DNA of 64,000 nucleotides from Allodiplogaster sudhausi (Eukaryota; Nematoda; Chromadorea; Rhabditida; Diplogasteridae), in assembly GCA_945643635.1 (NCBI GenBank), contig CALZFC010000027.1, positions 3,498,501 to 3,562,500 on the forward strand, in the 5' to 3' direction. The position numbers were made by a program, and so were the translations under genes. The stretch's first letter is position 1; each line of letters begins with the position of its first letter. Below, one piece after another: positions 3,766 through 64,000 of this stretch. The notes beneath the pieces are model-generated. The model was not told where the DNA came from and ran no database searches. It saw only the letters and a program-made list of their open reading frames with translations.

Positions 3766-3771
3766 AATAAA
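3766..3771 (+). promoter_or_regulatory. Polyadenylation signal AATAAA
   Basis: A canonical AATAAA lies 41 nt after the TAA stop of the secreted-protein gene, which fits the short 3' UTRs of compact animal genomes and supports the chosen stop. Confidence 0.7.
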
Positions 3772-5144: not shown

Positions 5145-5184
<40 letters not shown>

Positions 5185-11297: not shown

Positions 11298-11312
11298 CTG
11301 AACTTACATATA

Positions 11313-11410
11313 TTGAGAGATAAAATTGTATAAAACAAAATCATCAAAACTCGTTCACGACTCTGCAGAGCAGGAAAAGGATTAAGAGATAAAATTTGAG
11401 AAAAGGATCT
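11313..11410 (-). pseudogene. Degenerate array edge: spacer without its tRNA
   Basis: AGAGATAAAATT followed by a diverged AAATCATCAAAACTCGTTCACGAC segment matches the two ends of a normal spacer with the tRNA gene absent between them. It is followed by a normal spacer leading into the first tRNA copy. It marks the outermost relic of the array beside the membrane-protein gene. Confidence 0.55.
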
Positions 11411-11485
11411 TGCGTTCGAGGGGAATCGAACCCCGTCGAATGCTTGAAAGGCATCCATCCATGCCGACCATTACACCACGAACGC
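11411..11485 (-). pseudogene. First tRNA copy, anticodon UUC, degenerate
   Basis: The acceptor stem and B box are recognisable, but the anticodon loop reads CTTTCAA instead of CTTCCAA, giving anticodon UUC (a Glu anticodon) on a Gly-type body. A 4-nt duplication (CATC) lies between the D and anticodon stems, and the T-arm has lost bases, so its length is 75 nt. It is probably non-functional. Confidence 0.8.
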
Positions 11486-11567
11486 ACATTTACAAGATCA
11501 TTTAAACTCTTTCACGACTCTGCAGAGCAGGAAAAGGATTAAGAGATAATATTTGAGAAAAGGATCT

Positions 11568-11639
11568 TGCGTTCGGGGGGAATCGAACCCCCGTCGAATG
11601 CTTGGAAGGCATCCATTTTGACCATTACACCACGAACGC
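11568..11639 (-). tRNA. tRNA-Gly(UCC), array copy 2, D-stem variant
   Basis: Full length of 72 nt with loop CTTCCAA, intact B box and seven-pair acceptor stem. The 3' strand of the D stem has GC changed to AA, which breaks one pair. The same variant recurs in several copies at 14.0-15.9 kb. Confidence 0.85.
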
Positions 11640-11721
11640 ACATTTGCAAGATCATCTAAACACTTTTACGACTCTGCAGAACATGAAAAGGATTAAGAGA
11701 TAAAATTTGAGAAAAGGATCT

Positions 11722-11793
11722 TGCGTTGGGGGGGAATCGAACCCCCGTCGAATGCTTGGAAGGCATCCATGCTGACCATTACACCACGAACGC
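11722..11793 (-). tRNA. tRNA-Gly(UCC), array copy 3, acceptor mismatch
   Basis: Length is 72 nt and the anticodon is UCC. One base in the 3' acceptor strand is changed (GTTGGG where the consensus has GTTCGG on the plus strand), giving one mismatch at pair 6-67. Probably weakened but recognisable. Confidence 0.8.
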
Positions 11794-11875
11794 ACATTTG
11801 CAAGATCATCTAAACTCTTTCACGACTCTGCAGAGCAGGAAAAGGATTAAGAGATAAAATTTGAGAAAAGGATCT

Positions 11876-11947
11876 TGCGTTCTGGGGGAATCGAACCCCC
11901 GTCGAATGCTTGGAAGGCATCCATGCTGACCATTACACCACGAACGC
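11876..11947 (-). tRNA. tRNA-Gly(UCC), array copy 4
   Basis: Length is 72 nt with anticodon UCC and intact A and B boxes. A single change in the run at the acceptor/T-stem junction leaves one mismatch. Confidence 0.85.
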
Positions 11948-12029
11948 ACATTTGCAAGATCATCTAAACTCTTTCACGACTCTGCAGAGCAGGAAAAGGA
12001 TTAAGAGATAAAATTTGAGAAAAGGATCT

Positions 12030-12101
12030 TGCGTTCGGGGGGAATCGAACCCCCGTCGAATGCTTGGAAGGCATCCATGCTGACCATTACACCACGAATG
12101 C
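12030..12101 (-). tRNA. tRNA-Gly(UCC), array copy 5
   Basis: Length is 72 nt with anticodon UCC, a perfect T-arm and B box. One substitution near the 5' end makes the acceptor begin GCATTCG, which turns one G-C pair into A-C. Confidence 0.85.
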
Positions 12102-12183
12102 ACATTTGCAAGGTCATCTAAACTCTTTTACGACTCTGCAGAGCAGGAAAAGGATTAAGAGATAAAATTTGAGAAAAGGATCT

Positions 12184-12254
12184 TGCGTTCGAGGGGAATC
12201 CAACCCCGTCGAATGCTTGGAAGGCATCCACGCTGACCATTACACCACAAACGC
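12184..12254 (-). pseudogene. tRNA-Gly copy 6 with mutated B box
   Basis: Length is 71 nt. The B box reads GGTTGGATTCC rather than GGTTCGATTCC, losing the invariant C of TTC. The T stem is shortened and the 5' acceptor strand is changed. Anticodon UCC remains. Poor Pol III transcription and poor folding are expected. Confidence 0.7.
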
Positions 12255-12336
12255 ACATTTGCAAGATCATCTAAACTCTTTTACGACTCTGCAGAACAGG
12301 AAAAGGATTAAGAGATAAAATTTGAGAAAAGGATCT

Positions 12337-12408
12337 TGCGTTCGGGGGGAATCGAGCCCCCCTCGAATGCTTGGAAGGCATCCATGCTGACCATTACACC
12401 ACTAACGC
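12337..12408 (-). tRNA. tRNA-Gly(UCC), array copy 7, diverged
   Basis: Length is 72 nt with anticodon UCC. Substitutions occur in the T loop (GAGCC on the plus strand), at the T-stem base, and in the 5' acceptor strand (CTAACGC). Function is doubtful. Confidence 0.65.
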
Positions 12409-13409
12409 ACATTTACAAGATCATCTAAACTCTTTCACGGCTCTGCAGAACAGGAAAAGGATTAAGAGATAAAATTTGAGAAAAGGATCTTGCGTTCGTG
12501 GGGAATCGAACCCCCGTCGAATGCTTGGAAGGCATCCATGCTGACCATTACACCACTAACGCACATTTACAAGATCATCTAAACTCTTTCACGGCTCTGC
12601 AGAACAGGAAAAGGATTAAGAGATAAAATTTGAGAAAAGGATCTTGCGTTCGGGGGGAATCGAACGATCGTCGAATGCTTGGAAGGCATCCATGCTGACC
12701 ATTACACCACGAATGCACATTTGCAAGATTATCTAAACTCTTTCACGGCTCTGCAGAGCAGGAAAAGGATTAAGAGATAAAATTTGAGAAAAGGATCTTG
12801 CGTTCGGGGGGAATCGAACCCCCGTCGAATGCTTGGAAGGCATCCATGCTGACCATTACACCACGAACGCACAATTGCAAGGTCATCTAAACTCTTTTAC
12901 GACTCTGCAGAGCAGGAAAAGGATTAAGAGATAAAATTTGAAAAAAGGATCTTGCGTTCGGGGGGAATCGAATGCCCGTCGAATGCTTGGAAGGCATCCA
13001 TGCTGACCATTACACCACTAACGCACATTTACAAGATCATTTAAACTCTTTCACGACTCTGCAGAGCAGGAAAAGGATTAAGAGATAAAATTTGAGAAAA
13101 GGATCTTGCGTTCGGGGGGAATCGAACCCCCGTCGAATGCTTGGAAGGCATCCATGCTGACCATTACACCACGAACGCACATTTGCAAGATCATCTAAAC
13201 TCTTTTACGACTCTGCAGAACATGAAAAGGATTAAGAGATAAAATTTGAGAAAAGGATCTTGCGTTCGGGTTGAATCGAAATCCCGTCGAATGCTTGGAA
13301 GGCATCCATGCTGACCATTACACCACGAACGCACATTTGCAAGATCATCTAAACTCTTTCACGACTCTGCAGAGCAGGAAAAGGATTAAGAGATAAAATT
13401 TGAGAAAAG

Positions 13410-15257
13410 GATCTTGCGTTCGGGGGGAATCGAACCCCCGTCGAATGCTTGGAAGGCATCCACGTTGACCATTACACCACAAACGCACATTTGCAAGATC
13501 ATCTAAACTCTTTTACGACTCTGCAGAACAGGAAAAGGATTAAGAGATAAAATTTGAGAAAAGGATCTTGCGTTCGGGGGGAATCGAAATCCCGTCGAAT
13601 GCTTGGAAGGCATCCATGCTGACCATTACACCACGAACGCACATTTGCAAGATTATCTAAACTCTTTCACGGCTCTGCAGAGCAGGAAAAGGATTAAGAG
13701 ATAAAATTTGAGAAAAGGATCTTGCATTCGGGGATAATCGAACCCCCGTCGAATGCTTGGAAGGCATCCATGCTGACCATTACACCACGAACGCACATTT
13801 GCAAGATCATCTAAACTCTTTCACGGCTCTGCAGAACAGGAAAAGGATTAAGCGATAAAATTTGAGAAAAGGATCTTGCGTTCGGGGGGAATCGAACCCC
13901 CGTCGAATGCTTGGAAGGCATCCATGCTGACCATTACACCACGAACGCACATTTGCAAGATCATCTAAACTCTTTTACGACTCTGCAGAACATGAAAAGG
14001 ATTAAGAGATAAAATTTGAGAAAAGGATCTTGCGTTCGGGGGGAATCGAACCCCCGTCGAATGCTTGGAAGGCATCCATTTTGACCATTACACCACGAAC
14101 GCACATTTGCAAGATCATCTAAACTCTTTTACGACTCTGCAGAACATGAAAAGGATTAAGAGATAAAATTTGAGAAAAGGATCTTGCGTTCGGGGGGAAT
14201 CGAACGCCCGTCGAATGCTTGGAAGGCATCCATGCTGACCATTACACCACGAACGCACATTTGCGAGATCATCTAAACTCTTTCACGACTCTGCAGAGCA
14301 GGAAAAGGATTAAGAGATAAAATTTGAGAAAAGGATCTTGCGTTCGGGGGGAATCGAACCCCCGTCGAATGCTTGGAAGGCATCCACGCTGACCATTACA
14401 CCACAAACGCACATTTGCAAGATCATCTAAACTCTTTTACGACTCTGCAGAACAGGAAAAGGATTAAGAGATAAAATTTGAGAAAAGGATCTTGCGTTCG
14501 GGGGGAATCGAAATCCCGTCGAATGCTTGGAAGGCATCCATGCTGACCATTACACCACGAACGCACATTTGCAAGATTATCTAAACTCTTTCACGGCTCT
14601 GCAGAGCAGGAAAAGGATTAAGAGATAAAATTTGAGAAAAGGATCTTGCATTCGGGGATAATCGAACCCCCGTCGAATGCTTGGAAGGCATCCATGCTGA
14701 CCATTACACCACGAACGCACATTTGCAAGATCATCTAAACTCTTTCACGGCTCTGCAGAACAGGAAAAGGATTAAGCGATAAAATTTGAGAAAAGGATCT
14801 TGCGTTTGGGGGGAATCGAACCCCCGTCGAATGCTTGGAAGGCATCCATGCTGACCATTACACCACGAACGCACATTTGCAAGATCATCTAAACTCTTTT
14901 ACGACTCTGCAGAACATGAAAAGGATTAAGAGATAAAATTTGAGAAAAGGATCTTGCGTTCGGGGGGAATCGAACCCCCGTCGAATGCTTGGAAGGCATC
15001 CATTTTGACCATTACACCACGAACGCACATTTGCAAGATCATCTAAACTCTTTTACGACTCTGCAGAACATAAAAAGGATTAAGAGATAAAATTTGAGAA
15101 AAGGATCTTGCGTTCGGGGGGAATCGAACGCCCGTCGAATGCTTGGAAGGCATCCATGCTGACCATTACACCACGAACGCACATTTGCAAGATCATCTAA
15201 ACTCTTTCACGACTCTGCAGAGCAGGAAAAGGATTAAGAGATAAAATTTGAGAAAAG
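13410..15257 (-). repeat. Two copies of a 924-bp, six-unit higher-order repeat
   Basis: An ordered set of variant units appears twice with a spacing of exactly 924 bp (6 x 154): a copy with ACCACAAACG, one with AAATCCCG in the T stem, one with GCATTCGGGGATA, a spacer TAAGCGATAAA, one with CCATTTTGACC and one with AACGCCCG. The GCATTCGGGGATA marker, for example, follows CTT at 13721 and 14645. A third partial start follows at about 15258. This records a block duplication. Confidence 0.85.
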
Positions 15258-18200
15258 GATCTTGCGTTCGGGGGGAATCGAACCCCCGTCGAATGCTTGG
15301 AAGGCATCCACGCTGACCATTACACCACAAACGCACATTTGCAAGATCATCTAAACTCTTTTACGACTCTGCAGAACAGGAAAAGGATTAAGAGATAAAA
15401 TTTGAGAAAAGGATCTTGCGTTCGGGGGGAATCGAACCCCCGTCGAATGCTTGGAAGGCATCCATGCTGACCATTACACCACGAACGCACATTTGCAAGA
15501 TCATCTAAACTCTTTCACGACTCTGCAGAGCAGGAAAAGGATTAAGAGATAAAATTTGAGAAAAGGATCTTGCGTTCGGGGGGAATCGAACCCCCGTCGA
15601 ATGCTTGGAAGGCATCCATGCTGACCATTACACCACGAACGCACATTTGCAAGATCATCTAAACTCTTTTACGACTCTGCAGAACATGAAAAGGATTAAG
15701 AGATAAAATTTGAGAAAAGGATCTTGCGTTCGGGGGGAATCGAACGCCCGTCGAATGCTTGGAAGGCATCCATGCTGACCATTACACCACGAACGCACAT
15801 TTGCAAGATCATCTAAACTCTTTCACGACTCTGCAGAACATGAAAAGGATTAAGAGATAAAATTTGAGAAAAGGATCTTGCGTTCGGGGGGAATCGAACC
15901 CCCGTCGAATGCTTGGAAGGCATCCATTTTGACCATTACACCACGAACGCACATTTGCAAGATCATCTAAACTCTTTTACGACTCTGCAGAACATGAAAA
16001 GGATTAAGAGATAAAATTTGAGAAAAGGATCTTGCGTTCGGGGGGAATCGAACGCCCGTCGAATGCTTGGAAGGCATCCATGCTGACCATTACACCACGA
16101 ACGCACATTTGCAAGATCATCTAAACTCTTTCACGACTCTGCAGAGCAGGAAAAGGATTAAGAGATAAAATTTGAGAAAAGGATCTTGCGTTCGGGGGGA
16201 ATCGAACCCCCGTCGAATGCTTGGAAGGCATCCATGCTGACCATTACACCACAAACGCACATTTGCAAGATCATCTAAACTCTTTTACGACTCTGCAGAA
16301 CAGGAAAAGGATTAAGAGATAAAATTTGAGAAAAGGATCTTGCGTTCGGGGGGAATCGAACCCCCGTCGAATGCTTGGAAGGCATCCATGCTGACCATTA
16401 CACCACGAACGCACATTTGCAAGATCATCTAAACTCTTTCACGACTCTGCAGAGCAGGAAAAGGATTAAGAGATAAAATTTGAGAAAAGGATCTTGCGTT
16501 CGGGGGGAATCGAACCCCCGTCGAATGCTTGGAAGGCATCCATGCTGACCATTACACCACGAACGCACATTTGCAAGATCATCTAAACTCTTTTACGACT
16601 CTGCAGAACATGAAAAGGATTAAGAGATAAAATTTGAGAAAAGGATCTTGCGTTCGGGGGGAATCGAACGCCCGTCGAATGCTTGGAAGGCATCCATGCT
16701 GACCATTACACCACGAACGCACATTTGCAAGATCATCTAAACTCTTTCACGACTCTGCAGAGCAGGAAAAGGATTAAGAGATAAAATTTGAGAAAAGGAT
16801 CTTGCGTTCGGGGGGAATCGAACCCCCGTCGAATGCTTGGAAGGCATCCATGCTGACCATTACACCACGAACGCACATTTGCAAGATCATCTAAACTCTT
16901 TTACGACTCTGCAGAACATGAAAAGGATTAAGAGATAAAATTTGAGAAAAGGATCTTGCGTTCGGGGGGAATCGAACCCCGTCGAATGCTTGGAAGGCAT
17001 CCATGCTGACCATTACACCACGAACGCACATTTGCAAGATCATCTAAACTCTTTCACGACTCTGCAGAGCAGGAAAAGGATTAAGAGATAAAATTTGAGA
17101 AAAGGATCTTGCGTTCGGGGGGAATCGAACCCCCGTCGAATGCTTGGAAGGCATCCATGCTGACCATTACACCACAAACGCACATTTGCAAGATCATCTA
17201 AACTCTTTTACGACTCTGCAGAACAGGAAAAGGATTAAGAGATAAAATTTGAGAAAAGGATCTTGCGTTCGGGGGGAATCGAACCCCCGTCGAATGCTTG
17301 GAAGGCATCCATGCTGACCATTACACCACGAACGCACATTTGCAAGATCATCTAAACTCTTTTACGACTCTGCAGAACATGAAAAGGATTAAGAGATAAA
17401 ATTTGAGAAAAGGATCTTGCGTTCGGGGGGAATCGAACCCCCGTCGAATGCTTGGAAGGCATCCATGCTGACCATTACACCACGAACGCACATTTGCAAG
17501 ATCATCTAAACTCTTTTACGACTCTGCAGAGCAGTAAAAGGATTAAGAGATAAAATTTGAGAAAAGGATCTTGCGTTCGGGGGAATCGAACCCCCGTCGA
17601 ATGCTTGGAAGGCATCCATGCTGACCATTACACCACGAACGCACATTTGCAAGATCATCTAAACTCTTTTACGACTCTGCAGAACATGAAAAGGATTAAG
17701 AGATAAAATTTGAGAAAAGGATCTTGCGTTCGGGGGGAATCGAACGCCCGTCGAATGCTTGGAAGGCATCCATGCTGACCATTACACCACGAACGCACAT
17801 TTGCAAGATCATCTAAACTCTTTCACGACTCTGCAGAGCAGGAAAAGGATTAAGAGATAAAATTTGAGAAAAGGATCTTGCGTTCGGGGGGAATCGAACC
17901 CCCGTCGAATGCTTGGAAGGCATCCATGCTGACCATTACACCACGAACGCACATTTGCAAGATCATCTAAACTCTTTTACGACTCTGCAGAACATGAAAA
18001 GGATTAAGAGATAAAATTTGAGAAAAGGATCTTGCGTTCGGGGGGAATCGAACCCCGTCGAATGCTTGGAAGGCATCCATGCTGACCATTACACCACGAA
18101 CGCACATTTGCAAGATCATCTAAACTCTTTCACGACTCTGCAGAGCAGGAAAAGGATTAAGAGATAAAATTTGAGAAAAGGATCTTGCGTTCGGGGGGAA

Positions 18201-27200: not shown

Positions 27201-30200
27201 GACTCTGCAGAGCAGGAAAAGGATTAAGAGATAAAATTTGAGAAAAGGATCTTGCGTTCGGGGGGAATCGAACCCCCGTCGAATGCTTGGAAGGCATCCA
27301 TGCTGACCATTACACCACGAACGCACATTTGCAAGATCATCTAAACTCTTTCACGACTCTGCAGAACAGGAAAAGGATTAAGAGATAAAATTTGAGAAAA
27401 GGATCTTGCGTTCGGGGGAATCGAACCCCCGTCGAATGCTTGGAAGGCATCCATGCTGACCATTACACCACGAACGCACATTTGCAAGATCATCTAAACT
27501 CTTTCACGACTCTGCAGAACAGGAAAAGGATTAAGAGATAAAATTTGAGAAAAGGATCTTGCGTTCGGGGGGAATCGAACCCCCGTCGAATGCTTGGAAG
27601 GCATCCATGCTGACCATTACACCACGAACGCACATTTGCAAGATCATCTAAACTCTTTTACGACTCTGCAGAACAGGAAAAGGATTAAGAGATAAAATTT
27701 GAGAAAAGGATCTTGCGTTCGGGGGGAATCGAACCCCCGTCGAATGCTTGGAAGGCATCCATGCTGACCATTACACCACGAACGCACATTTGCAAGATCA
27801 TCTAAACTCTTTTACGACTCTGCAGAACAGGAAAAGGATTAAGAGATAAAATTTGAGAAAAGGATCTTGCGTTCGGGGGAATCGAACCCCCGTCGAATGC
27901 TTGGAAGGCATCCATGCTGACCATTACACCACGAACGCACATTTGCAAGATCATCTAAACTCTTTTACGACTCTGCAGAACAGGAAAAGGATTAAGAGAT
28001 AAAATTTGAGAAAAGGATCTTGCGTTCGGGGGGAATCGAACCCCCGTCGAATGCTTGGAAGGCATCCATGCTGACCATTACACCACGAACGCACATTTGC
28101 AAGATCATCTAAACTCTTTCACGACTCTGCAGAGCAGGAAAAGGATTAAGAGATAAAATTTGAGAAAAGGATCTTGCGTTCGGGGGGAATCGAACCCCCG
28201 TCGAATGCTTGGAAGGCATCCATGCTGACCATTACACCACGAACGCACATTTGCAAGATCATCTAAACTCTTTCACGACTCTGCAGAGCAGGAAAAGGAT
28301 TAAGAGATAAAATTTGAGAAAAGGATCTTGCGTTCGGGGGGAATCGAACCCCCGTCGAATGCTTGGAAGGCATCCATGCTGACCATTACACCACGAACGC
28401 ACATTTGCAAGATCATCTAAACTCTTTCACGACTCTGCAGAGCAGGAAAAGGATTAAGAGATAAAATTTGAGAAAAGGATCTTGCGTTCGGGGGGAATCG
28501 AACCCCGTCGAATGCTTGGAAGGCATCCATGCTGACCATTACACCACGAACGCACATTTGCAAGATCATCTAAACTCTTTCACGACTCTGCAGAACAGGA
28601 AAAGGATTAAGAGATAAAATTTGAGAAAAGGATCTTGCGTTCGGGGGGAATCGAACCCCCGTCGAATGCTTGGAAGGCATCCATGCTGACCATTACACCA
28701 CGAACGCACATTTGCAAGATCATCTAAACTCTTTCACGACTCTGCAGAACAGGAAAAGGATTAAGAGATAAAATTTGAGAAAAGGATCTTGCGTTCGGGG
28801 GGAATCGAACCCCCGTCGAATGCTTGGAAGGCATCCATGCTGACCATTACACCACGAACGCACATTTGCAAGATCATCTAAACTCTTTCACGACTCTGCA
28901 GAACAGGAAAAGGATTAAGAGATAAAATTTGAGAAAAGGATCTTGCGTTCGGGGGAATCGAACCCCCGTCGAATGCTTGGAAGGCATCCATGCTGACCAT
29001 TACACCACGAACGCACATTTGCAAGATCATCTAAACTCTTTCACGACTCTGCAGAGCAGGAAAAGGATTAAGAGATAAAATTTGAGAAAAGGATCTTGCG
29101 TTCGGGGGGAATCGAACCCCGTCGAATGCTTGGAAGGCATCCATGCTGACCATTACACCACGAACGCACATTTGCAAGATCATCTAAACTCTTTTACGAC
29201 TCTGCAGAACAGGAAAAGGATTAAGAGATAAAATTTGAGAAAAGGATCTTGCGTTCGGGGGAATCGAACCCCCGTCGAATGCTTGGAAGGCATCCATGCT
29301 GACCATTACACCACGAACGCACATTTGCAAGATCATCTAAACTCTTTTACGACTCTGCAGAACAGGAAAAGGATTAAGAGATAAAATTTGAGAAAAGGAT
29401 CTTGCGTTCGGGGGGAATCGAACCCCCGTCGAATGCTTGGAAGGCATCCATGCTGACCATTACACCACGAACGCACATTTGCAAGATCATCTAAACTCTT
29501 TCACGACTCTGCAGAACAGGAAAAGGATTAAGAGATAAAATTTGAGAAAAGGATCTTGCGTTCGGGGGGAATCGAACCCCCGTCGAATGCTTGGAAGGCA
29601 TCCATGCTGACCATTACACCACGAACGCACATTTGCAAGATCATCTAAACTCTTTCACGACTCTGCAGAACAGGAAAAGGATTAAGAGATAAAATTTGAG
29701 AAAAGGATCTTGCGTTCGGGGGGAATCGAACCCCCGTCGAATGCTTGGAAGGCATCCATGCTGACCATTACACCACGAACGCACATTTGCAAGATCATCT
29801 AAACTCTTTTACGACTCTGCAGAACAGGAAAAGGATTAAGAGATAAAATTTGAGAAAAGGATCTTGCGTTCGGGGGGAATCGAACCCCCGTCGAATGCTT
29901 GGAAGGCATCCATGCTGACCATTACACCACGAACGCACATTTGCAAGATCATCTAAACTCTTTTACGACTCTGCAGAACAGGAAAAGGATTAAGAGATAA
30001 AATTTGAGAAAAGGATCTTGCGTTCGGGGGGAATCGAACCCCCGTCGAATGCTTGGAAGGCATCCATGCTGACCATTACACCACGAACGCACATTTGCAA
30101 GATCATCTAAACTCTTTTACGACTCTGCAGAACAGGAAAAGGATTAAGAGATAAAATTTGAGAAAAGGATCTTGCGTTCGGGGGGAATCGAACCCCGTCG

Positions 30201-37557: not shown

Positions 37558-37627
37558 TGCGGGAATCGATCGAACCCCCGTCGGAATGCTTGGAAGGCAT
37601 CCATGCTGACCATTACACCACGAACGC
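37558..37627 (-). pseudogene. Scrambled tRNA-Gly copy in the uniform core
   Basis: The 3' acceptor strand and part of the T stem are missing (GCGGGAATCG on the plus strand). ATCG is duplicated in the T loop, a G is inserted before the anticodon arm, and AAGG is duplicated just outside. The 5' half and anticodon are normal. The next spacer also lacks three bases (GCAGAAGG). Flanking copies on both sides are canonical. Confidence 0.85.
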
Positions 37628-43236: not shown

Positions 43237-43240
43237 AAAA
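43237..43240 (-). terminator. Pol III T4 terminator (representative unit)
   Basis: TTTT begins 7 nt after the discriminator base on the minus strand. Two further TTTT runs follow in the same spacer (AATTTTAT and CCTTTTCC), so each unit has one main and two back-up terminators before the next gene. Confidence 0.8.
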
Positions 43241-43257
43241 GGATCTTGCGTTCGGGG

Positions 43258-43268
43258 GGAATCGAACC
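43258..43268 (-). promoter_or_regulatory. Pol III B box (representative unit)
   Basis: GGTTCGATTCC is a perfect match to the eukaryotic B-box consensus GGTTCGANTCC and overlaps the T arm. Only some copies near the array edges lose it. Confidence 0.9.
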
Positions 43269-43300
43269 CCCGTCGAATGCTTGGAAGGCATCCATGCTGA

Positions 43301-43311
43301 CCATTACACCA
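43301..43311 (-). promoter_or_regulatory. Pol III A box (representative unit)
   Basis: TGGTGTAATGG, starting at tRNA position 8, fits the A-box consensus TRGYNNANNGG and is preserved in nearly all copies. Confidence 0.85.
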
Positions 43312-43400
43312 CGAACGCACATTTGCAAGATCATCTAAACTCTTTCACGACTCTGCAGAGCAGGAAAAGGATTAAGAGATAAAATTTGAGAAAAGGATCT

Positions 43401-43472
43401 TGCGTTCGGGGGGAATCGAACCCCCGTCGAATGCTTGGAAGGCATCCATGCTGACCATTACACCACGAACGC
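43401..43472 (-). tRNA. tRNA-Gly(UCC), canonical copy
   Basis: Identical to the copy at 43247-43318 and offset by exactly 154 bp. It shows the period and uniformity of the core. Confidence 0.97.
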
Positions 43473-43554
43473 ACATTTGCAAGATCATCTAAACTCTTTC
43501 ACGACTCTGCAGAGCAGGAAAAGGATTAAGAGATAAAATTTGAGAAAAGGATCT

Positions 43555-43626
43555 TGCGTTCGGGGGGAATCGAACCCCCGTCGAATGCTTGGAAGGCATC
43601 CATGCTGACCATTACACCACGAACGC
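43555..43626 (-). tRNA. tRNA-Gly(UCC), canonical copy
   Basis: The next unit at 154-bp spacing, identical in the tRNA body, with all promoter and cloverleaf elements intact. Confidence 0.97.
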
Positions 43627-46600: not shown

Positions 46601-49600
46601 AAGGATTAAGAGATAAAATTTGAGAAAAGGATCTTGCGTTCGGGGGGAATCGAACCCCCGTCGAATGCTTGGAAGGCATCCATGCTGACCATTACACCAC
46701 GAACGCACATTTGCAAGATCATCTAAACTCTTTCACGACTCTGCAGAGCAGGAAAAGGATTAAGAGATAAAATTTGAGAAAAGGATCTTGCGTTCGGGGG
46801 GAATCGAACCCCCGTCGAATGCTTGGAAGGCATCCATGCTGACCATTACACCACGAACGCACATTTGCAAGATCATCTAAACTCTTTCACGACTCTGCAG
46901 AGCAGGAAAAGGATTAAGAGATAAAATTTGAGAAAAGGATCTTGCGTTCGGGGGGAATCGAACCCCCGTCGAATGCTTGGAAGGCATCCATGCTGACCAT
47001 TACACCACGAACGCACATTTGCAAGATCATCTAAACTCTTTTACGACTCTGCAGAGCAGGAAAAGGATTAAGAGATAAAATTTGAGAAAAGGATCTTGCG
47101 TTCGGGGGGAATCGAACCCCCGTCGAATGCTTGGAAGGCATCCATGCTGACCATTACACCACGAACGCACATTTGCAAGATCATCTAAACTCTTTCACGA
47201 CTCTGCAGAGCAGGAAAAGGATTAAGAGATAAAATTTGAGAAAAGGATCTTGCGTTCGGGGGGAATCGAACCCCCGTCGAATGCTTGGAAGGCATCCATG
47301 CTGACCATTACACCACGAACGCACATTTGCAAGATCATCTAAACTCTTTCACGACTCTGCAGAACAGGAAAAGGATTAAGAGATAAAATTTGAGAAAAGG
47401 ATCTTGCGTTCGGGGGGAATCGAACCCCCGTCGAATGCTTGGAAGGCATCCATGCTGACCATTACACCACGAACGCACATTTGCAAGATCATCTAAACTC
47501 TTTCACGACTCTGCAGAACAGGAAAAGGATTAAGAGATAAAATTTGAGAAAAGGATCTTGCGTTCGGGGGGAATCGAACCCCCGTCGAATGCTTGGAAGG
47601 CATCCATGCTGACCATTACACCACGAACGCACATTTGCAAGATCATCTAAACTCTTTCACGACTCTGCAGAGCAGGAAAAGGATTAAGAGATAAAATTTG
47701 AGAAAAGGATCTTGCGTTCGGGGGGAATCGAACCCCCGTCGAATGCTTGGAAGGCATCCATGCTGACCATTACACCACGAACGCACATTTGCAAGATCAT
47801 CTAAACTCTTTCACGACTCTGCAGAGCAGGAAAAGGATTAAGAGATAAAATTTGAGAAAAGGATCTTGCGTTCGGGGGGAATCGAACCCCCGTCGAATGC
47901 TTGGAAGGCATCCATGCTGACCATTACACCACGAACGCACATTTGCAAGATCATCTAAACTCTTTCACGACTCTGCAGAGCAGGAAAAGGATTAAGAGAT
48001 AAAATTTGAGAAAAGGATCTTGCGTTCGGGGGGAATCGAACCCCCGTCGAATGCTTGGAAGGCATCCATGCTGACCATTACACCACGAACGCACATTTGC
48101 AAGATCATCTAAACTCTTTCACGACTCTGCAGAGCAGGAAAAGGATTAAGAGATAAAATTTGAGAAAAGGATCTTGCGTTCGGGGGGAATCGAACCCCCG
48201 TCGAATGCTTGGAAGGCATCCATGCTGACCATTACACCACGAACGCACATTTGCAAGATCATCTAAACTCTTTTACGACTCTGCAGAGCAGGAAAAGGAT
48301 TAAGAGATAAAATTTGAGAAAAGGATCTTGCGTTCGGGGGGAATCGAACCCCCGTCGAATGCTTGGAAGGCATCCATGCTGACCATTACACCACGAACGC
48401 ACATTTGCAAGATCATCTAAACTCTTTCACGACTCTGCAGAGCAGGAAAAGGATTAAGAGATAAAATTTGAGAAAAGGATCTTGCGTTCGGGGGGAATCG
48501 AACCCCGTCGAATGCTTGGAAGGCATCCATGCTGACCATTACACCACGAACGCACATTTGCAAGATCATCTAAACTCTTTCACGACTCTGCAGAGCAGGA
48601 AAAGGATTAAGAGATAAAATTTGAGAAAAGGATCTTGCGTTCGGGGGGAATCGAACCCCCGTCGAATGCTTGGAAGGCATCCATGCTGACCATTACACCA
48701 CGAACGCACATTTGCAAGATCATCTAAACTCTTTCACGACTCTGCAGAGCAGGAAAAGGATTAAGAGATAAAATTTGAGAAAAGGATCTTGCGTTCGGGG
48801 GGAATCGAACCCCCGTCGAATGCTTGGAAGGCATCCATGCTGACCATTACACCACGAACGCACATTTGCAAGATCATCTAAACTCTTTCACGACTCTGCA
48901 GAGCAGGAAAAGGATTAAGAGATAAAATTTGAGAAAAGGATCTTGCGTTCGGGGGGAATCGAACCCCCGTCGAATGCTTGGAAGGCATCCATGCTGACCA
49001 TTACACCACGAACGCACATTTGCAAGATCATCTAAACTCTTTCACGACTCTGCAGAGCAGGAAAAGGATTAAGAGATAAAATTTGAGAAAAGGATCTTGC
49101 GTTCGGGGGGAATCGAACCCCCGTCGAATGCTTGGAAGGCATCCATGCTGACCATTACACCACGAACGCACATTTGCAAGATCATCTAAACTCTTTCACG
49201 ACTCTGCAGAGCAGGAAAAGGATTAAGAGATAAAATTTGAGAAAAGGATCTTGCGTTCGGGGGGAATCGAACCCCCGTCGAATGCTTGGAAGGCATCCAT
49301 GCTGACCATTACACCACGAACGCACATTTGCAAGATCATCTAAACTCTTTCACGACTCTGCAGAGCAGGAAAAGGATTAAGAGATAAAATTTGAGAAAAG
49401 GATCTTGCGTTCGGGGGGAATCGAACCCCCGTCGAATGCTTGGAAGGCATCCATGCTGACCATTACACCACGAACGCACATTTGCAAGATCATCTAAACT
49501 CTTTCACGACTCTGCAGAACAGGAAAAGGATTAAGAGATAAAATTTGAGAAAAGGATCTTGCGTTCGGGGGGAATCGAACCCCCGTCGAATGCTTGGAAG

Positions 49601-55600: not shown

Positions 55601-56579
55601 AAGGCATCCATGCTGACCATTACACCACGAACGCACATTTGCAAGATCATCTAAACTCTTTCACGACTCTGCAGAGCAGGAAAAGGATTAAGAGATAAAA
55701 TTTGAGAAAAGGATCTTGCGTTCGGGGGGAATCGAACCCCCGTCGAATGCTTGGAAGGCATCCATGCTGACCATTACACCACGAACGCACATTTGCAAGA
55801 TCATCTAAACTCTTTTACGACTCTGCAGAACAGGAAAAGGATTAAGAGATAAAATTTGAGAAAAGGATCTTGCGTTCGGGGGGAATCGAACCCCCGTCGA
55901 ATGCTTGGAAGGCATCCATGCTGACCATTACACCACGAACGCACATTTGCAAGATCATCTAAACTCTTTCACGACTCTGCAGAGCAGGAAAAGGATTAAG
56001 AGATAAAATTTGAGAAAAGGATCTTGCGTTCGGGGGGAATCGAACCCCCGTCGAATGCTTGGAAGGCATCCATGCTGACCATTACACCACGAACGCACAT
56101 TTACAAGATCATCTAAACTCTTTCACGGCTCTGCAGAACAGGAAAAGGATTAAGAGATAAAATTTGAGAAAAGGATCTTGCGTTCGGGGGGAATCGAACC
56201 CCCGTCGAATGCTTGGAAGGCATCCATGCTGACCATTACACCACGAACGCACATTTGCAAGATCATCTAAACTCTTTCACGGCTCTGCAGAGCAGGAAAA
56301 GGATTAAGAGATAAAATTTGAGAAAAGGATCTTGCGTTCGGGGGGAATCGAACCCCCGTCGAATGCTTGGAAGGCATCCATGCTGACCATTACACCACGA
56401 ACGCACATTTGCAAGATCATCTAAACTCTTTCACGACTCTGCAGAGCAGGAAAAGGATTAAGAGATAAAATTTGAGAAAAGGATCTTGCGTTCGGGGGGA
56501 ATCGAACCCCCGTCGAATGCTTGGAAGGCATCCATGCTGACCATTACACCACGAACGCACATTTGCAAGATCATCTAAA

Positions 56580-59500
56580 CTCTTTTACGACTCTGCAGAA
56601 CATGGAAAAGGATTAAGAGATAAAATTTGAGAAAAGGATCTTGCGTTCGGGGGGAATCGAACCACCGTCGAATGCTTGGAAGGCATCCATGCTGACCATT
56701 ACACCACGAACGCACATTTACAAGATCATCTAAACTCTTTCACGGCTCTGCAGAACAGGAAAAGGATTAAGAGATAAAATTTGAGAAAAGGATCTTGCGT
56801 TCGGGGGGAATCGAACCCCCGTCGAATGCTTGGAAGGCATCCATGCTGACCATTACACCACGAACGCACATTTGCAAGATCATCTAAACTCTTTCACGAC
56901 TCTGCAGAGCAGGAAAAGGATTAAGAGATAAAATTTGAGAAAAGGATCTTGCGTTCGGAGGGAATCGAACCCCCGTCGAATGCTTGGAAGGCATCCATGC
57001 TGACCATTACACCACGAACGCACATTTGCAAGATCATCTAAACTCTTTTACGACTCTGCAGAACAGGAAAAGGATTAAGAGATAAAATTTGAGAAAAGGA
57101 TCTTGCGTTCGGGTTGAATCGAACCCCCGTCGAATGCTTGGAAGGCATCCATGCTGACCATTACACCACGAACGCACATTTACAAGATCATCTAAACTCT
57201 TTCACGACTCTGCAGAGCAGGAAAAGGATTAAGAGATAAAATTTGAGAAAAGGATCTTGCGTTCGGGGGGAATCGAACCCCCGTCGAATGCTTGGAAGGC
57301 ATCCATGCTGACCATTACACCACGAACGCACATTTACAAGATCATCTAAACTCTTTCACGGCTCTGCAGAACAGGAAAAGGATTAAGAGATAAAATTTGA
57401 GAAAAGGATCTTGCGTTCGGGGGGAATCGAACCCCCGTCGAATGCTTGGAAGGCATCCATGCTGACCATTACACCACGAACGCACATTTACAAGATCATC
57501 TAAACTCTTTCACGACTCTGCAGAGCAGGAAAAGGATTAAGAGATAAAATTTGAGAAAAGGATCTTGCGTTCGGGGGGAATCGAACCCCCGTCGAATGCT
57601 TGGAAGGCATCCATGCTGACCATTACACCACGAACGCACATTTATAAGATCATCTAAACTCTTTCACGGCTCTGCAGAACAGGAAAAGGATTAAGAGATA
57701 AAATTTGAGAAAAGGATCTTGCGTTCGGGGAGAATCGAACCCCCGTCGAATGCTTGGAAGGCATCCATGCTGACCATTACACCACGAACGCACATTTACA
57801 AGATCATCTAAACTCTTTCACGACTCTGCAGAGCAGGAAAAGGATTAAGAGATAAAATTTGAGAAAAGGATCTTGCGTTCGGGGGAATCGAACCCCCGTC
57901 GAATGCTTGGAAGGCATCCATGCTGACCATTACACCACGAACGCACATTTACAAGATCATCTAAACTCTTTCACGGCTCTGCAGAACAGGAAAAGGATTA
58001 AGAGATAAAATTTGAGAAAAGGATCTTGCGTTCGGGGGGAATCGAACCCCCGTCGAATGCTTGGAAGGCATCCATGCTGACCATTACACCACGAACGCAC
58101 ATTTGCAAGATCATCTAAACTCTTTCACGACTCTGCAGAGCAGGAAAAGGATTAAGAGATAAAATTTGAGAAAAGGATCTTGCGTTCGGGGGAATCGAAC
58201 CCCCGTCGAATGCTTGGAAGGCATCCATGCTGACCATTACACCACGAAAGCACATTTGCAAGATCATCTAAACTCTTTTACGACTCTGCAGAACAGGAAA
58301 AGGATTAAGAGATAAAATTTGAGAAAAGGATCTTGCGTTCGGGGGAATCGAACCCCCGTCGAATGCTTGGAAGGCATCCATGCTGACCATTACACCACGA
58401 ACGCACATTTACAAGATCATCTAAACTCTTTCACGACTCTGCAGAGCAGGAAATGGATTAACGTAAGAGATAAGATTTGAGAAAAGGATCTTGCGTTCGG
58501 TGGGGAATCGAACCCCCGTCGAATGCTTGGAAGGCATCCATGCTGACCATTACACCATGAACGCACATTTACAAGATCATCTAAACTCTTTCACGGCTCT
58601 GCAGAACAGGAAAAGGATTAAGACATAAAATTTGAGAAAAGGATCTTGCGTTCGGGTTGAATCGAACCCCCGTCGAATGCTTGGAAGGCATCCATGCTGA
58701 CCATTACACCACGAACGCACATTTACAAGATCATCTAAACTCTTTCACGACTCTGCAGAGCAGGAAAAGGATTAACGTAAGAGATAAGATTTGAGAAAAG
58801 GATCATGCGTTCGGTGGGGAATCGAACCCCCGTCGAATGCTTGGAAGACATCCATGCTGACCATTACACCACGAACGCACATTTATAAGATCATCTAAAC
58901 TCTTTCACGGCTCTGCAGAACAGGAAAAGGATTAAGAGATAAAATTTGAGAAAAGGATCTTGCGTTCGGGGAGAATCGAACCCCCGTCGAATGCTTGGAA
59001 GGCATCCATGCTGACCATTACACCACGAACGCACATTTACAAGATCATCTAAACTATTTCACGACTCTGCAGAGCAGGAAAAGGACTAAGAGATAAAATT
59101 TGGAAAAGGATCTTGCGTTCGGGGGGAATCGAACCACCGTCGAATGCTTGGAAGGCATCCATGCTGACCATTACACCACGAACGCACATTTACAAGATCA
59201 TCTAAACTCTTTCACGGCTCTGCAGAACAGGAAAAGGATTAAGAGATAAAATTTGAGAAAAGGATCTTGCGTTCGGGGGGAATCGAACCCCCGTCGAATG
59301 CTTGGAAGGCATCCATGCTGACCATTACACCACGAACGGACATTTGCAAGATCATCTAAACTCTTTCACGACTCTGCAGAGCAGGAAAAGGATTAAGAGA
59401 TAAAATTTGAGAAAAGGATCTTGTGTTCGGAGGGAATCGAACCCCCGTAGAATGCTTGGAAGGCATCCATGCTGACCATTACACCACGAAAGCACATTTG

Positions 59501-62500
59501 CAAGATCATCTAAACTCTTTTACGACTCTGCAGAACAGGAAAAGGATTAAGACATAAAATTTGAGAAAAGGATCTTGCGTTCGGGTTGAATCGAACCCCC
59601 GAAGAATGCTTGGAAGGCATCCATGCTGACCATTACACCACGAACGCACATTTACAAGATCATCTAAACTCTTTCACGACTCTGTAGAGCAGGAAATGGA
59701 TTAACGTAAGAGATAAGATTTGAGAAAAGGATCATGCGTTCGGTGGGGAATCGAACCCCCGTCGAATGCTTGGAAGACATCCATGCTGACGATTACACCA
59801 TGAACGCACATTTACAAGATCATCTAAACTCTTTCACGGCTCTGCAGAACAGGAAAAGGATTAAGACATAAAATTTGAGAAAAGGATCTTGCGTTCGGGT
59901 TGAATCGAACCCCCGTAGAATGCTTGGAAGGCATCCATGCTGACCATTACACCACGAACGCACATTTACAAGATCATCTAAACTCTTTCACGACTCTGTA
60001 GAGCAGGAAAAGGATTAACGTAAGAGATAAGATTTGAGAAAAGGATCATGCGTTCGGTGGGGAATCGAACCCCCGTCGAATCCTTGGAAGACATCCATGC
60101 TGACCATTACACCACGAACGCACATTTATAAGATCATCTAAACTCTTTCACGGCTCTGCAGAACAGGAAAAGGATTAAGAGATAAAATTTGAGAAAAGGA
60201 TCTTGCGTTCGGGGAGAATCGAACCCCCGTCGAATGCTTGGAAGGCATCCATGCTGACCATTACACCACGAACGCACATTTACAAGATCATCTAAACTAT
60301 TTCACGACTCTGCAGAGCAGGAAAAGGACTAAGAGATAAAATTTGGGAAAAGGATCTTGCGTTCGGGGGGAATCGAACCCCCGTCGAATGCTTGGAAGGC
60401 ATCCATGCTGACCATTACACCACGAACGCACATTTACTAGATCATCTAAACTCTTTCACGACTCTGCAGAGCAGGAAAATTACTAAGAGATAAATTTTGG
60501 GAAAAGGATCTTGCGTTCGGGGGGAATCGAACCCCCGTCGAATGCTTGGAAGGCATCCATGCTGACCATTACACCACGAACGCACATTTACTAGATCATC
60601 TAAACTCTTTCACGACTCTGCAGAGCAGGAAAATTACTAAGAGATAAATTTTGGGAAAAGGATCTTGCGTTCGGGGGGAATCGAACCCCCGTCGAATGCT
60701 TGGAAGGCATCCATGCTGACCATTACACCACGAACGAACATTTGCAAGATCATCTAAACTCTTTTACGACTCTGCAGAACATGAAAAGGATTAAGAGATA
60801 AAATTTGAGAAAAGGATCTTGCGTTCGGGGGGAATCGAACCACCGTCGAATGCTTGGAAGGCATCCATGCTGACCATTACACCACGAACGAACATTTGCA
60901 AGATCATCTAAACTCTTTTACGACTCTGCAGAACATGAAAAGGATTAAGAGATAAAATTTGAGAAAAGGATCTTGCGTTCGGGGGGAATCGAACCACCGT
61001 CGAATGCTTGGAAGGCATCCATGCTGACCATTACACCACGAACGCACATTTACAAGATCATCTAAACTCTTTCACGGCTCTGCAGAACAGGAAAAGGATT
61101 AAGAGATAAAATTTGAGAAAAGGATCTTGCGTTCGGGGGGAATCGAACCCCCGTCGAATGCTTGGAAGGCATCCATGCTGACCATTACACCACGAACGCA
61201 CATTTGCAAGATCATCTAAACTCTTTCACGACTCTGCAGAGCAGGAAAAGGATTAAGAGATAAAATTTGAGAAATGGATCTTGTGTTCGGAGGGAATCGA
61301 ACCCCCGTAGAATGCTTGGAAGGCATCCATGCTGACCATTACACCACGAAAGCACATTTGCAAGATCATCTAAACTCTTTTACGACTCTGCAGAACAGGA
61401 AAAGGATTAAGACATAAAATTTGAGAAAAGGATCTTGCGTTCGGGTTGAATCGAACCCCCGTCGAATGCTTGGAAGGCATCCATGCTGACCATTACACCA
61501 CGAACGCACATTTACAAGATCATCTAAACTATTTCACGACTCTGCAGAGCAGGAAAAGGACTAAGAGATAAAATTTGGGAAAAGGATCTTGCGTTCGGGG
61601 GGAATCGAACCCCCGTCGAATGCTTGGAAGGCATCCATGCTGACCATTACACCACGAACGCACATTTACTAGATCATCTAAACTCTTTCACGACTCTGCA
61701 GAGCAGGAAAATTACTAAGAGATAAATTTTGGGAAAAGGATCTTGCGTTCGGGGGGAATCGAACCCCCGTCGAATGCTTGGAAGGCATCCATGCTGACCA
61801 TTACACCACGAACGCACATTTACAAGATCATCTAAACTCTTTCACGGCTCTGCAGAACAGGAAAAGGATTAAGACATAAAATTTGAGAAAAGGATCTTGC
61901 GTTCGGGGGGAATCGAACCCCCGTCGAATGCTTGGAAGGCATCCATGCTGACCATTACACCACGAACGCACATTTACAAGATCATCTAAACTCTTTCACG
62001 ACTCTGTAGAGCAGGAAAAGGATTAACGTAAGAGATAAGATTTGAGAAAAGGATCATGCGTTCGGTGGGGAATCGAACACCCGTCGAATGCTTGGAAGAC
62101 ATCCATGCTGACCATTACACCACGAACGCACATTTACAAGATCATCTAAAGTCTTTCACGGCTCTGCAGAACAGGAAAAGGATTAAGAGATAAAATTTGA
62201 GAAAAGGATCTTGCGTTCGGGGGGAATCGAACCCCCGTCGAATGCTTGGAAGGCATCCATGCTGACCATTACACCACGAACGCACATTTACAAGATCATC
62301 TAAACTATTTCACGACTCTGCAGAGCAGGAAAAGGACTAAGAGATAAAATTTGGGAAAAGGATCTTGCGTTCGGGGGGAATCGAACCCCCGTCGAATGCT
62401 TGGAAGGCATCCATGCTGACCATTACACCACGAACGCACATTTACTAGATCATCTAAACTCTTTCACGACTCTGCAGAGCAGGAAAAGGACTAAGAGATA

Positions 62501-63763
62501 AATTTTGGGAAAAGGATCTTGAGTTCGGGGGGAATCGAACCCCCGTCGAATGCTTGGAAGGCATCCATGCTGACCATTACACCACGAACGCACATTTACA
62601 AGATCATCTAAACTCTTTCACGGCTCTGCAGAACAGGAAAAGGATTAAGACATAAAATTTGAGAAAAGGATCTTGCGTTCGGGGGGAATCGAACCCCCGT
62701 CGAATGCTTGGAAGGCATCCATGCTGACCATTACACCACGAACGCACATTTACAAGATCATCTAAACTCTTTCACGACTCTGTAGAGCAGGAAAAGGATT
62801 AACGTAAGAGATAAGATTTGAGAAAAGGATCATGCATTCGGTGGGGAATCGAACACCCGTCGAATGCTTGGAAGACATCCATGCTGACCATTACACCACG
62901 AACGCACATTTACAAGATCATCTAAAGTCTTTCACGGCTCTGCAGAACAGGAAAAGGATTAAGAGATAAAATTTGAGAAAAGGATCTTGCGTTCGGGGGG
63001 AATCGAACCCCCGTCGAATGCTTGGAAGGCATCCATGCTGACCATTACACCACGAACGCACATTTACAAGATCATCTAAACTATTTCACGACTCTGCAGA
63101 GCAGGAAAAGGACTAAGAGATAAAATTTGGGAAAAGGATCTTGCGTTCGGGGGGAATCGAACCCCCGTCGAATGCTTGGAAGGCATCCATGCTGACCATT
63201 ACACCACGAACGCACATTTACTAGATCATCTAAACTCTTTCACGACTCTGCAGAGCAGGAAAAGGACTAAGAGATAAATTTTGGGAAAAGGATCTTGAGT
63301 TCGGGGGGAATCGAACCCCCGTCGAATGCTTGGAAGGCATCCATGCTGACCATTACACCACGAACGCACATTTACAAGATCATCTAAACTCTTTCACGGC
63401 TCTGCAGAACAGGAAAAGGATTAAGACATAAAATTTGAGAAAAGGATCTTGCGTTCGGGGGGAATCGAACCCCCGTCGAATGCTTGGAAGGCATCCATGC
63501 TGACCATTACACCACGAACGCACATTTACAAGATCATCTAAACTCTTTCACGACTCTGTAGAGCAGGAAAAGGATTAACGTAAGAGATAAGATTTGAGAA
63601 AAGGATCATGCGTTCGGTGGGGAATCGAACACCCGTCGAATGCTTGGAAGACATCCATGCTGACCATTACACCACGAACGCACATTTACAAGATCATCTA
63701 AACTCTTTCACGGCTCTGCAGAACAGGAAAAGGATTAAGAGATAAAATTTGAGGAAAGGATCT
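56580..63763 (-). repeat. Diverged right-hand part of the array with higher-order repeats
   Basis: Unit variants rise sharply here: TTTACAAG, TTTACTAG or TTTATAAG in the spacer, AAATTACTAAGAG, ACCACCG in the T stem, GGGTTGAATCG, and a 160-bp class with GATTAACGTAAGAG and CGGTGGGG. The long class recurs at about 58456, 58770, 59699, 60013, 62021, 62797 and 63573. Spacings show a 1243-bp (eight-unit) and a 776-bp (five-unit) higher-order repeat. Most copies still carry anticodon UCC. Confidence 0.9.
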
Positions 63764-63835
63764 TGCGTTCGGGGGGAATCGAACCCCCGTCGAATGCTTG
63801 GAAGGCATCCATGCTGACCATTACACCACGAACGC
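63764..63835 (-). tRNA. tRNA-Gly(UCC), canonical copy near right edge
   Basis: A 72-nt copy with the consensus body. The spacer to its right has the AAGATTATC variant otherwise seen near 12.7, 13.6 and 14.6 kb at the left side of the array. Confidence 0.95.
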
Positions 63836-63917
63836 ACATTTGCAAGATTATCTAAACTCTTTCACGGCTCTGCAGAGCAGGAAAAGGATTAAGAGATAAA
63901 ATTTGAGAAAAGGATCT

Positions 63918-63989
63918 TGCGTTCGGGGGGAATCGAACCCCCGTCGAATGCTTGGAAGGCATCCATGCTGACCATTACACCACGAACGC
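63918..63989 (-). tRNA. tRNA-Gly(UCC), last complete copy in window
   Basis: A full consensus copy, followed by the first 11 bp of the next spacer at the window end. The array therefore continues beyond 64,000. Confidence 0.95.
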
Positions 63990-64000
63990 ACATTTGCAAG

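Follow-up and report, generated by a model that had tools for sequence, protein, structure and literature searches.

A tandem array of at least 342 tRNA-Gly(UCC) gene units at a duplicated locus of the nematode Allodiplogaster sudhausi

A stretch of 64,000 nucleotides of the Allodiplogaster sudhausi genome (hereafter the window) carries a single head-to-tail array of tRNA-Gly(UCC) genes. The array (C27) and a second one (C35) form one duplicated locus, flanks included, each with its own unit, and the Gly-UCC array is one of several giant tRNA arrays in this genome. Taking the evidence together, we think it probable that these are Pol III tRNA genes that have been amplified and homogenised, the tRNA being under selection while copy number does not follow codon demand.

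Results

How many genes does the array hold? ARAGORN called 340 tRNA genes in the window, every one of them minus-strand: tRNA-Gly(tcc) in 339 cases and Glu(ttc) in one. Tandem Repeats Finder (TRF) returned a single array (table 1) of period 154 and 342 copies, with 98% matches. A wrap-around alignment resolved 342 complete units, each about 154 bp long, together with two partial end pieces that we excluded from unit counts. ARAGORN made no call in two of the units, one near 13.3 kb and the other near 37.6 kb, which show up as two 308-bp spacings. The 342 units and the array length are minimum values, since a 5,000-N scaffold gap (C27:3562501-3567500), beginning with the first base beyond the window, interrupts the C27 array. 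With that reservation as to length, the homogeneous array of at least 52 kb and some 340 genes given in the preliminary description is confirmed. The three methods agree, and the reversed tRNA core pattern, used as a control, has no match genome-wide; chance or a repeat-calling artefact is therefore rejected. That the array is purely an invention of the assembly is also unlikely, a different array being found at the syntenic C35 place with both flanks assembled. The C27 array is thus a row of head-to-tail repeats of one isoacceptor, in many tens of copies or more.

Table 1. Features of the window (position 1 is its first nucleotide).
Feature	Position	Strand	Basis or remark
Non-array flank	1..11335	.	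Genome search with piece 6700-8600
Left flank bordering the array	11091..11335	.	About 76% homologous to the C35 array flank
Head-to-tail array, 342 full units (tRNA 72 bp + spacer 82 bp)	11336..64000	-	TRF, ARAGORN, unit alignment
Outermost copy, decayed	11410..11486	-	D-arm insertions; anticodon changed to UUC (called Glu)
Downstream edge zone	11410..16570	-	Per-bin substitution counts
154-bp array stretch taken as query	30018..30171	-	Unit alignment
Most homogeneous bin	42920..48190	-	Per-bin substitution counts
Upstream edge zone, variant units	58492..63990	-	Unit alignment, per-bin counts

Is each unit a complete gene? The consensus unit has an A box (TGGTGTAATGG), the anticodon TCC and a B box (GGTTCGATTCC), followed by AGATCC and a TTTT terminator. 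Its spacer holds two further T runs, and no microsatellite was seen inside the 154-bp unit in the alignment. The identical 72-nt tRNA gene is present in 238 of the 342 copies. The A box is intact in 341 and the B box in 315; the UCC anticodon is retained in 341 and the TTTT terminator in 340. Rfam cloverleaf scoring covered 18 of the 342 copies, among which six perfect copies scored 68.2 bits; ARAGORN calls cover 340. These are the features of a eukaryotic tRNA-Gly(UCC) gene: cloverleaf, A and B boxes, UCC anticodon and Pol III terminator. As first supposed, most copies would appear, judged by these counts, to be transcribable.

Is the array uniform along its length? In the most homogeneous bin all 34 units carry the perfect tRNA, and spacer differences average 0.24. 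The edges are decayed. In bin 11300-16570 tRNA substitutions occur in 27 of 34 units (the decayed outermost copy included) and 7 of 34 are perfect; in the last bin (58730-64000) they occur in 20 of 34. The upstream edge zone has six inserted bases in seven units, and a five-unit pattern recurs. The outermost copy scores 38.1 bits against the Rfam tRNA model, versus 68.2 for perfect copies; we take the Glu(ttc) call at this left edge to be a decayed Gly copy and not a separate tRNA-Glu. This combination of homogeneous core, decayed edges and local multi-unit repeats is the pattern behind the exchange and conversion proposed below.

Single copies of C27 seem to mutate freely. Distinct substitutions number 46 over the 72 tRNA sites (0.64 per site) and 41 over the 82 spacer sites (0.50 per site), so that the tRNA has no deficit of them. 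No more than 8 of the 342 copies, however, share any one tRNA substitution, against up to 163 for spacer variants. The variant-frequency test between tRNA and spacer was not significant in C27 (Mann-Whitney p = 0.14) and gave p = 0.03 in C35. In the latter array 10 of 129 units share one tRNA variant, and the variability of the A box (0.016) exceeds the tRNA mean (0.0079). One-base deletions in the G/C runs of the T stem are carried by up to 18 and 34 copies of C27. Homopolymer deletions are unevenly distributed, at 2, 7, 11, 13, 4, 5, 0, 4, 3 and 0 of 34-35 units in successive bins, which suggests that they are inherited, although G/C runs are also prone to long-read errors. Some damaged copies would thus have spread within C27, unless the T-stem deletions are sequencing errors.

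What lies beside the array? Searched against the genome, piece 6700-8600 of the flank has a sizeable counterpart at a single further site, next to the C35 array (83%); a 40-bp match on C16 was also found. The C35 array itself, bounded by its gene calls at C35:529306-565073 (about 36 kb), holds 173 tRNA calls, has both flanks assembled and contains flank-derived inserts. Synteny between the two loci extends to either side of the arrays, with identities of roughly 73-93%; in the right flank 3 kb are collinear at 79-93%. One 235-bp match in the C35 right-flank comparison was not collinear and was disregarded. A Pfam search of ten flank reading frames found no family above the cut-off. An Arthropod_7SK match at 8328-8429 (21.5 bits, against a cut-off of 44) was taken as chance.

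Between the two arrays the consensus tRNA differs at 0 of 72 positions and the spacer at 8 of 82 (Fisher p = 0.007), the differences lying at unit positions 93, 110, 122, 130, 138, 143, 146 and 148. Among the matches listed outside C27 and C35, the unit query aligned to the tRNA only, extending at most a few bases beyond it. The tRNA is thus conserved and the spacer locus-specific. Compared between arrays, the unit is not free of constraint; the density of mutations per copy shows no constraint.

Exact Gly-UCC cores number 500 genome-wide: 327 in the C27 array, 159 in C35 and 14 dispersed. The same 72-nt tRNA stands at four of the six dispersed loci read (on C261, C131, C45 and C5). Lys-UUU has the largest count found, 1,059 exact cores; Gly-GCC has 497 and Arg-UCG 307. 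In one sample the Gly-GCC genes alternate with Leu-CAG. Five tRNA species were seen in arrays. An RF00005 profile search of the genome scored 63 of 47,110 first-look candidates, which is not a census, and a tRNA-Asp pattern gave 0 matches and is uninformative.

Does the number of genes follow the use of codons? The genome has at least 150 places that match PF01484, the cuticle-collagen N-terminal domain, a nematode family, as would be expected of a nematode genome; the 14 controls of the search tool, bacteria and archaea without a match, do not bear on this. Codon usage was read from 12 of the 150 matches, selected because their open frames were long; a script picked the frames, some of which are short or continue into non-collagen sequence. 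In these 12 loci GGC makes up 433 of 860 glycine codons (50%) and GGA 302 (35%). AAA accounts for 9 of 82 lysine codons (11%) and CGA for 24 of 235 arginine codons (10%). Set against 500, 1,059 and 307 cores for the tRNAs that read GGA, AAA and CGA, these values do not fit a copy number driven by demand.

Discussion

How might such an array arise and persist? We propose that an ordinary Pol III tRNA-Gly(UCC) gene family was amplified in tandem. Each 154-bp unit is a complete gene, in which internal A and B boxes form the promoter; a TTTT terminator lies 6 bp beyond the tRNA, and the spacer is short. Units would have multiplied, and been homogenised within one locus, by unequal exchange and gene conversion. 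The locus is present twice with its flanks, each array having its own unit. The spacer has drifted while the tRNA remained unchanged, so that enough copies are presumably transcribed and put to use for the array consensus to be held functional by selection. Conversion by the dispersed genes could account for part of this constancy. Copy number, from the comparison of counts with codon usage, would be set mainly by recombination dynamics, as in the Lys-UUU, Arg-UCG and Gly-GCC/Leu-CAG arrays.

Could the unit be an inert satellite, spreading as tandem DNA that carries a tRNA, with most or all copies silent? Its behaviour is indeed satellite-like, as the preliminary description allowed: the core is homogenised and the edges decayed, multi-unit repeats are local, C35 has flank-derived inserts, distinct mutations in the tRNA are not in deficit and deletion-bearing copies seem to have spread. 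But an unconstrained satellite does not agree with a tRNA free of differences between arrays whose spacers differ, with the low frequency of each tRNA substitution in C27 beside that of spacer variants, or with a terminator kept in nearly every copy, and we hold this explanation unlikely. Still less credit can be given to the array as a row of TFIIIC/Pol III sites that serves as insulator, boundary or replication-pause region, the tRNA product being secondary. The human 1q23.3 tRNA tandem repeat has been proposed as a boundary element (PMC4041453, in excerpt), and the near-universal A box would suit such a role. We nevertheless judge it very improbable, for the anticodon is conserved as well, beyond the needs of a TFIIIC site, and when seven samples from other arrays were searched with one 82-bp spacer, nothing matched.

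What of supply? It had been suggested that selection expanded the array so that tRNA-Gly(UCC) would be available for the GGA codons of collagens and of other proteins made in large amounts. The number of Gly-UCC cores, the conserved tRNA consensus and the high count of cuticle-collagen matches, from which glycine demand is probably high, speak for it, and GGA is the most frequent glycine codon in many of the nematodes tabulated in the excerpted part of PMC1779591. The suggestion is weakened because GGC exceeds GGA in the 12 loci, Gly-GCC is about as numerous as Gly-UCC, and Lys-UUU, with the largest count, and Arg-UCG serve codons that are minor in those loci; we regard it as improbable.

The amplified and homogenised Pol III gene family may be part of something wider. 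It is possible, though we put it forward tentatively, that the bulk of the tRNA genes has been relocated to giant arrays of one or two tRNAs, hundreds to a thousand copies each, which have stayed functional through genome duplication with gene number uncoupled from codon demand. If so, tRNA supply would have to depend on most copies being silenced or on Pol III being limited, or else the arrays would serve chromosome structure. The copy number of tRNA genes is a widely used proxy for tRNA supply. Tallies of exact cores such as those for the AAA- and CGA-reading tRNAs, whose codons are minor in the collagens, strain this proxy, and how cells cope with them is a question. With the same tRNA and different spacers and flanks, C27 and C35 are naturally tagged: the trailer of a precursor can be traced to its array of origin, so that a silent satellite could be told directly from a working gene bank.

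How does the array compare with known systems, as described in excerpts of the papers cited? The human 1q23.3 VNTR is likewise a tandem tRNA array and, between human and mouse, conserves its tRNA and almost nothing else of the unit; it differs in its 7.3-kb unit, 9-43 copies and CTCF sites (PMC4041453). In Entamoeba almost all tRNA genes stand in tandem arrays, in units of up to five genes with intervening short tandem repeats (PMC2652664), whereas here there is one gene per microsatellite-free unit. Phytophthora infestans, an oomycete and not an animal, has single-gene, dimeric and trimeric tRNA tandem arrays genome-wide, for example 271 genes for tRNA-Cys with a repeat length of 513 nt, longer than the present unit; unequal crossing-over was given as the cause of array growth (PMC9584435). 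Hydractinia, a cnidarian, has tandem arrays of ncRNA genes (PMC11067881). A close parallel is the nematode Nippostrongylus brasiliensis, with massive tRNA tandem repeats (VeCTRs) of close to 150 tRNA-Trp and 90 tRNA-Ser copies, compacted in an earlier reference assembly (PMC5765664). These too involve single isoacceptors and combine, in a unit of about 200 bp, a conserved tRNA with a species-specific spacer (80 bp in tRNA-Ser). Huge and homogeneous as it is, the C27 array is less exceptional for an animal than was first thought, given the Nippostrongylus and Hydractinia arrays. It is a large new case of the array type known from Nippostrongylus, Hydractinia and Phytophthora, set apart from the N. 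brasiliensis repeats by its isoacceptor, by a single row of no fewer than 342 copies, by its counterpart at a duplicated locus and by the further giant arrays of other tRNAs in its genome.

The array in the window

The window lies at 3498501–3562500 of contig CALZFC010000027.1 (C27) in an assembly of 351.8 Mb and 382 contigs. As the preliminary description held, one large homogeneous tRNA-Gly(UCC) array reaches its end: a single tandem array with a period of 154 bp. ARAGORN makes 340 calls in it, all on the minus strand; 339 are Gly(tcc), and the other, Glu(ttc), is a decayed array copy at the edge. Alignment to the array's own consensus gives 342 full units, on which our unit counts are based, and two partial end pieces, which were left out of them.

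How far does the array extend? A gap of 5,000 N begins at the base directly after the window, and the C27 DNA past this gap contains no tRNA calls. Another C27 gap (3635001–3640000) is also exactly 5,000 N, which suggests a placeholder of fixed size, so that the gap gives no measure of the missing length. Since the units at the right end of the window are diverse again, the actual end of the array may be close by.

In gene direction the unit comprises a 72-bp tRNA with A box TGGTGTAATGG, anticodon TCC and B box GGTTCGATTCC, followed, within the 82-bp spacer, by AGATCC and then TTTT and two further T runs. The exact consensus tRNA is present in 238 of the 342 units; the A box and the anticodon are each kept in 341, TTTT in 340 and the B box in 315. 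The Rfam tRNA model (cut-off 29), applied to 18 of the 342 copies, scored six perfect copies at 68.2 bits, three with one T-arm deletion at 58.6 bits, two with two such deletions at 60 bits and seven left-edge copies at 38.1–63.2 bits, the minimum being the decayed outermost copy. Judged by their sequence, the majority of copies could be transcribed and folded, which bears out the earlier remark that most look transcribable.

A perfect tRNA is found in 7 of 34 units in the left-edge bin, in all 34 units between 42.9 and 48.2 kb and in 14 of 34 in the final bin; the last zone also holds a recurring five-unit pattern and seven units into which six bases have been inserted. Unequal exchange usually leaves tandem arrays with a homogenised middle and decayed ends.

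A duplicated locus on contig C35

The second Gly-UCC array, on C35, has 173 calls (172 Gly-tcc and one Arg-tcg) and both its flanks are present in the assembly. With the C35 locus inverted, one flank matches the left flank of the window in pieces of about 73–86% identity, and the other is collinear over 3 kb (79–93%) with C27 DNA past the window's gap. Window positions 6700–8600 have a single other substantial match in the genome, adjoining the C35 array (83%), besides a 40-bp match on C16. Since both C35 flanks match those on C27, we infer that the Gly-UCC locus was duplicated together with the array or an array seed.

Measured gene to gene, 43 of the 172 C35 units are long (41 of 320–385 bp, two of 216 bp). 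The inserted DNA aligns with the left flank of this same array (81.5% over 119 bp) and has an incomplete tRNA at its end, which is what exchange at the edge of an array should produce. The 41 units of 320–385 bp, with flank-like insert and truncated tRNA, are now dispersed through the array (separately read stretches L015–L018 and L026).

Several other features surround these loci. A 672-bp repeat, in three copies 99% identical, adjoins the array in the C35 flank (L026:317-2335). To the left of the window, C27:3488501–3498500 (L023) is matched twice by C35, about 6.2 kb apart, which points to a tandem duplication there. Window positions 9677–10920, minus strand, hold probable exons of a membrane protein, in which Pfam found no family above cut-off; the stretch is 77% conserved beside the C35 array. 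Duplicated blocks occur on C1/C17, C27/C35, C5/C110 and C5/C119 in two classes, one about 78–80% identical, to which the C17/C1 collagen pair belongs (67 of 205 four-fold sites differ), and one about 96–98% identical. The two classes suggest an ancient duplication of the genome, or a hybrid origin, together with retained haplotypes.

Constraint on tRNA and spacer

Is the tRNA held more firmly than the spacer? We compared the arrays using 129 C35 units, the 43 long ones having been dropped beforehand. Between the consensus units, none of the 72 tRNA sites differs, as against 8 of 82 in the spacer (Fisher p = 0.007). The C27 units show a diversity of 0.0094 in their tRNA and 0.0240 in their spacer; the corresponding C35 values are 0.0079 and 0.0327. 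In C27 the most frequent tRNA substitution is carried by 8 of 342 copies and the most frequent spacer variant by 163; the C35 figures are 10 of 129 and 53. At thresholds picked post hoc, C27 variants in at least seven copies number 1 of 46 in the tRNA versus 9 of 41 in the spacer (p = 0.004), and those in at least five copies 8 of 46 versus 14 of 41 (p = 0.06).

On the other hand, distinct substitutions per site are not rarer in the tRNA of C27 (0.64 versus 0.50 in the spacer; 0.18 versus 0.21 in C35), and a rank test of tRNA against spacer variants is not significant there (p = 0.14; C35, p = 0.03). The A box in C35 is rather variable (0.016), and one-base T-stem deletions occur in 18 and 34 C27 copies; these too count against constraint. 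Individual copies would be free to decay, and variants that damage the tRNA would seldom spread, so that the consensus of the array would remain functional.

tRNA genes elsewhere in the genome

Exact cores of the array tRNA (matches to a fixed sequence pattern) number 500 genome-wide, of which 486 lie in the two arrays (327 on C27, 159 on C35); the 14 dispersed ones form small clusters or a single gene on C261, C131, C45 and C5. About 20 further, diverged matches to the tRNA portion occur elsewhere, and two of these (L024, L025) we take to be genes of another Gly-UCC version. At C261:606650–607986 (L019), nine tRNA-Gly(UCC) calls form a two-gene repeat of 331 bp with partial tRNA copies between; this small cluster resembles the C27 array through the tRNA only.

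Gly-UCC is not special among the tRNAs of this genome, since others also form giant arrays. A family scan and pattern counts, with places taken from the first 100 matches listed per count, gave 1,059 exact cores for Lys-UUU (1,056 on one strand), 497 for Gly-GCC and 307 for Arg-UCG.

Positions of tRNA arrays in the A. sudhausi assembly
Array	Position	Spacing or period
tRNA-Gly(UCC), C27	window 11,336 to window end	154 bp
tRNA-Gly(UCC), C35	C35:529,306 to 565,073 (gene calls)	
tRNA-Lys(UUU)	C19:2294302 to at least 2500169 (L044, L048)	137/259 bp
tRNA-Arg(UCG)	C21:1782247-1889203 (L040-L043)	231/345 bp
tRNA-Arg(UCG), smaller	C9:5848109-5855058	
tRNA-Gly(GCC)/tRNA-Leu(CAG), alternating	C27:842098 to at least 886899 (L047), the window's own contig	~470 bp

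The Lys-UUU array was sampled at 2.40 and 2.48 Mb, between which we infer that it is continuous; with tRNA-family matches up to 2.50 Mb, it apparently exceeds 200 kb. The Gly-GCC/Leu-CAG array has 6 and 5 genes per sampled 2.5 kb. The spacings differ, and seven samples of other tRNA arrays contain nothing that matches the Gly-UCC spacer, so the giant arrays of different isoacceptors probably arose separately.

Codon usage

Did the array expand to supply GGA codons in collagens, as had been raised as a possibility? Pfam PF01484, which we take to be nematode-typical and on which we base treating the genome as a nematode's, has at least 150 matches (14 prokaryote controls). From 150 matches, 12 collagen loci were selected for long open frames, chosen by script without gene models. 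Their 860 Gly codons are GGC 433, GGA 302, GGT 107 and GGG 18; AAA accounts for 9 of 82 Lys codons and CGA for 24 of 235 Arg codons. Removal of two near-identical partners left these shares roughly unchanged. A thirteenth collagen exon (L020:9164-9976), with two tRNA-Gly(UCC) genes some 4 kb away, also prefers GGC (GGC 21, GGA 13, GGT 13 and GGG 5 of 52). In the collagen sample, then, the commonest codons are not those read by the tRNAs with the most genes, Lys-UUU and its rare AAA included. This weakens the supply idea but leaves it standing, since the gene set is small and special.

Comparison with known arrays

The initial observation is thus confirmed and its interpretation supported in part only. 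On sequence grounds, the best explanation of the C27 array is a tandem family of real tRNA genes that has become homogenised, part of this genome's wider tendency to form tRNA arrays.

Beyond Nippostrongylus brasiliensis, no further nematode reports of giant tRNA arrays were found among the best-ranked open-licence literature; the cited passages on Onchocerca lupi (PMC12931274) and Meloidogyne hapla (PMC12643312) concern mitochondrial tRNA genes. Giant tRNA arrays are a kind already known, given earlier arrays in other organisms. In Phytophthora infestans (PMC9584435), 271 tRNA-Cys genes are arranged as a 513-nt repeat, and arrays of two and of three genes also occur. Entamoeba (PMC2652664) and human 1q23.3 (PMC4041453) provide older cases, and Bermudez-Santana et al. 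(PMC2888827) mention clusters in Nematostella and teleosts that are exceptionally large, with fifty members and more. What is new in A. sudhausi is the size of the array, the pairing of duplicated arrays and the presence of several giant arrays in one nematode.
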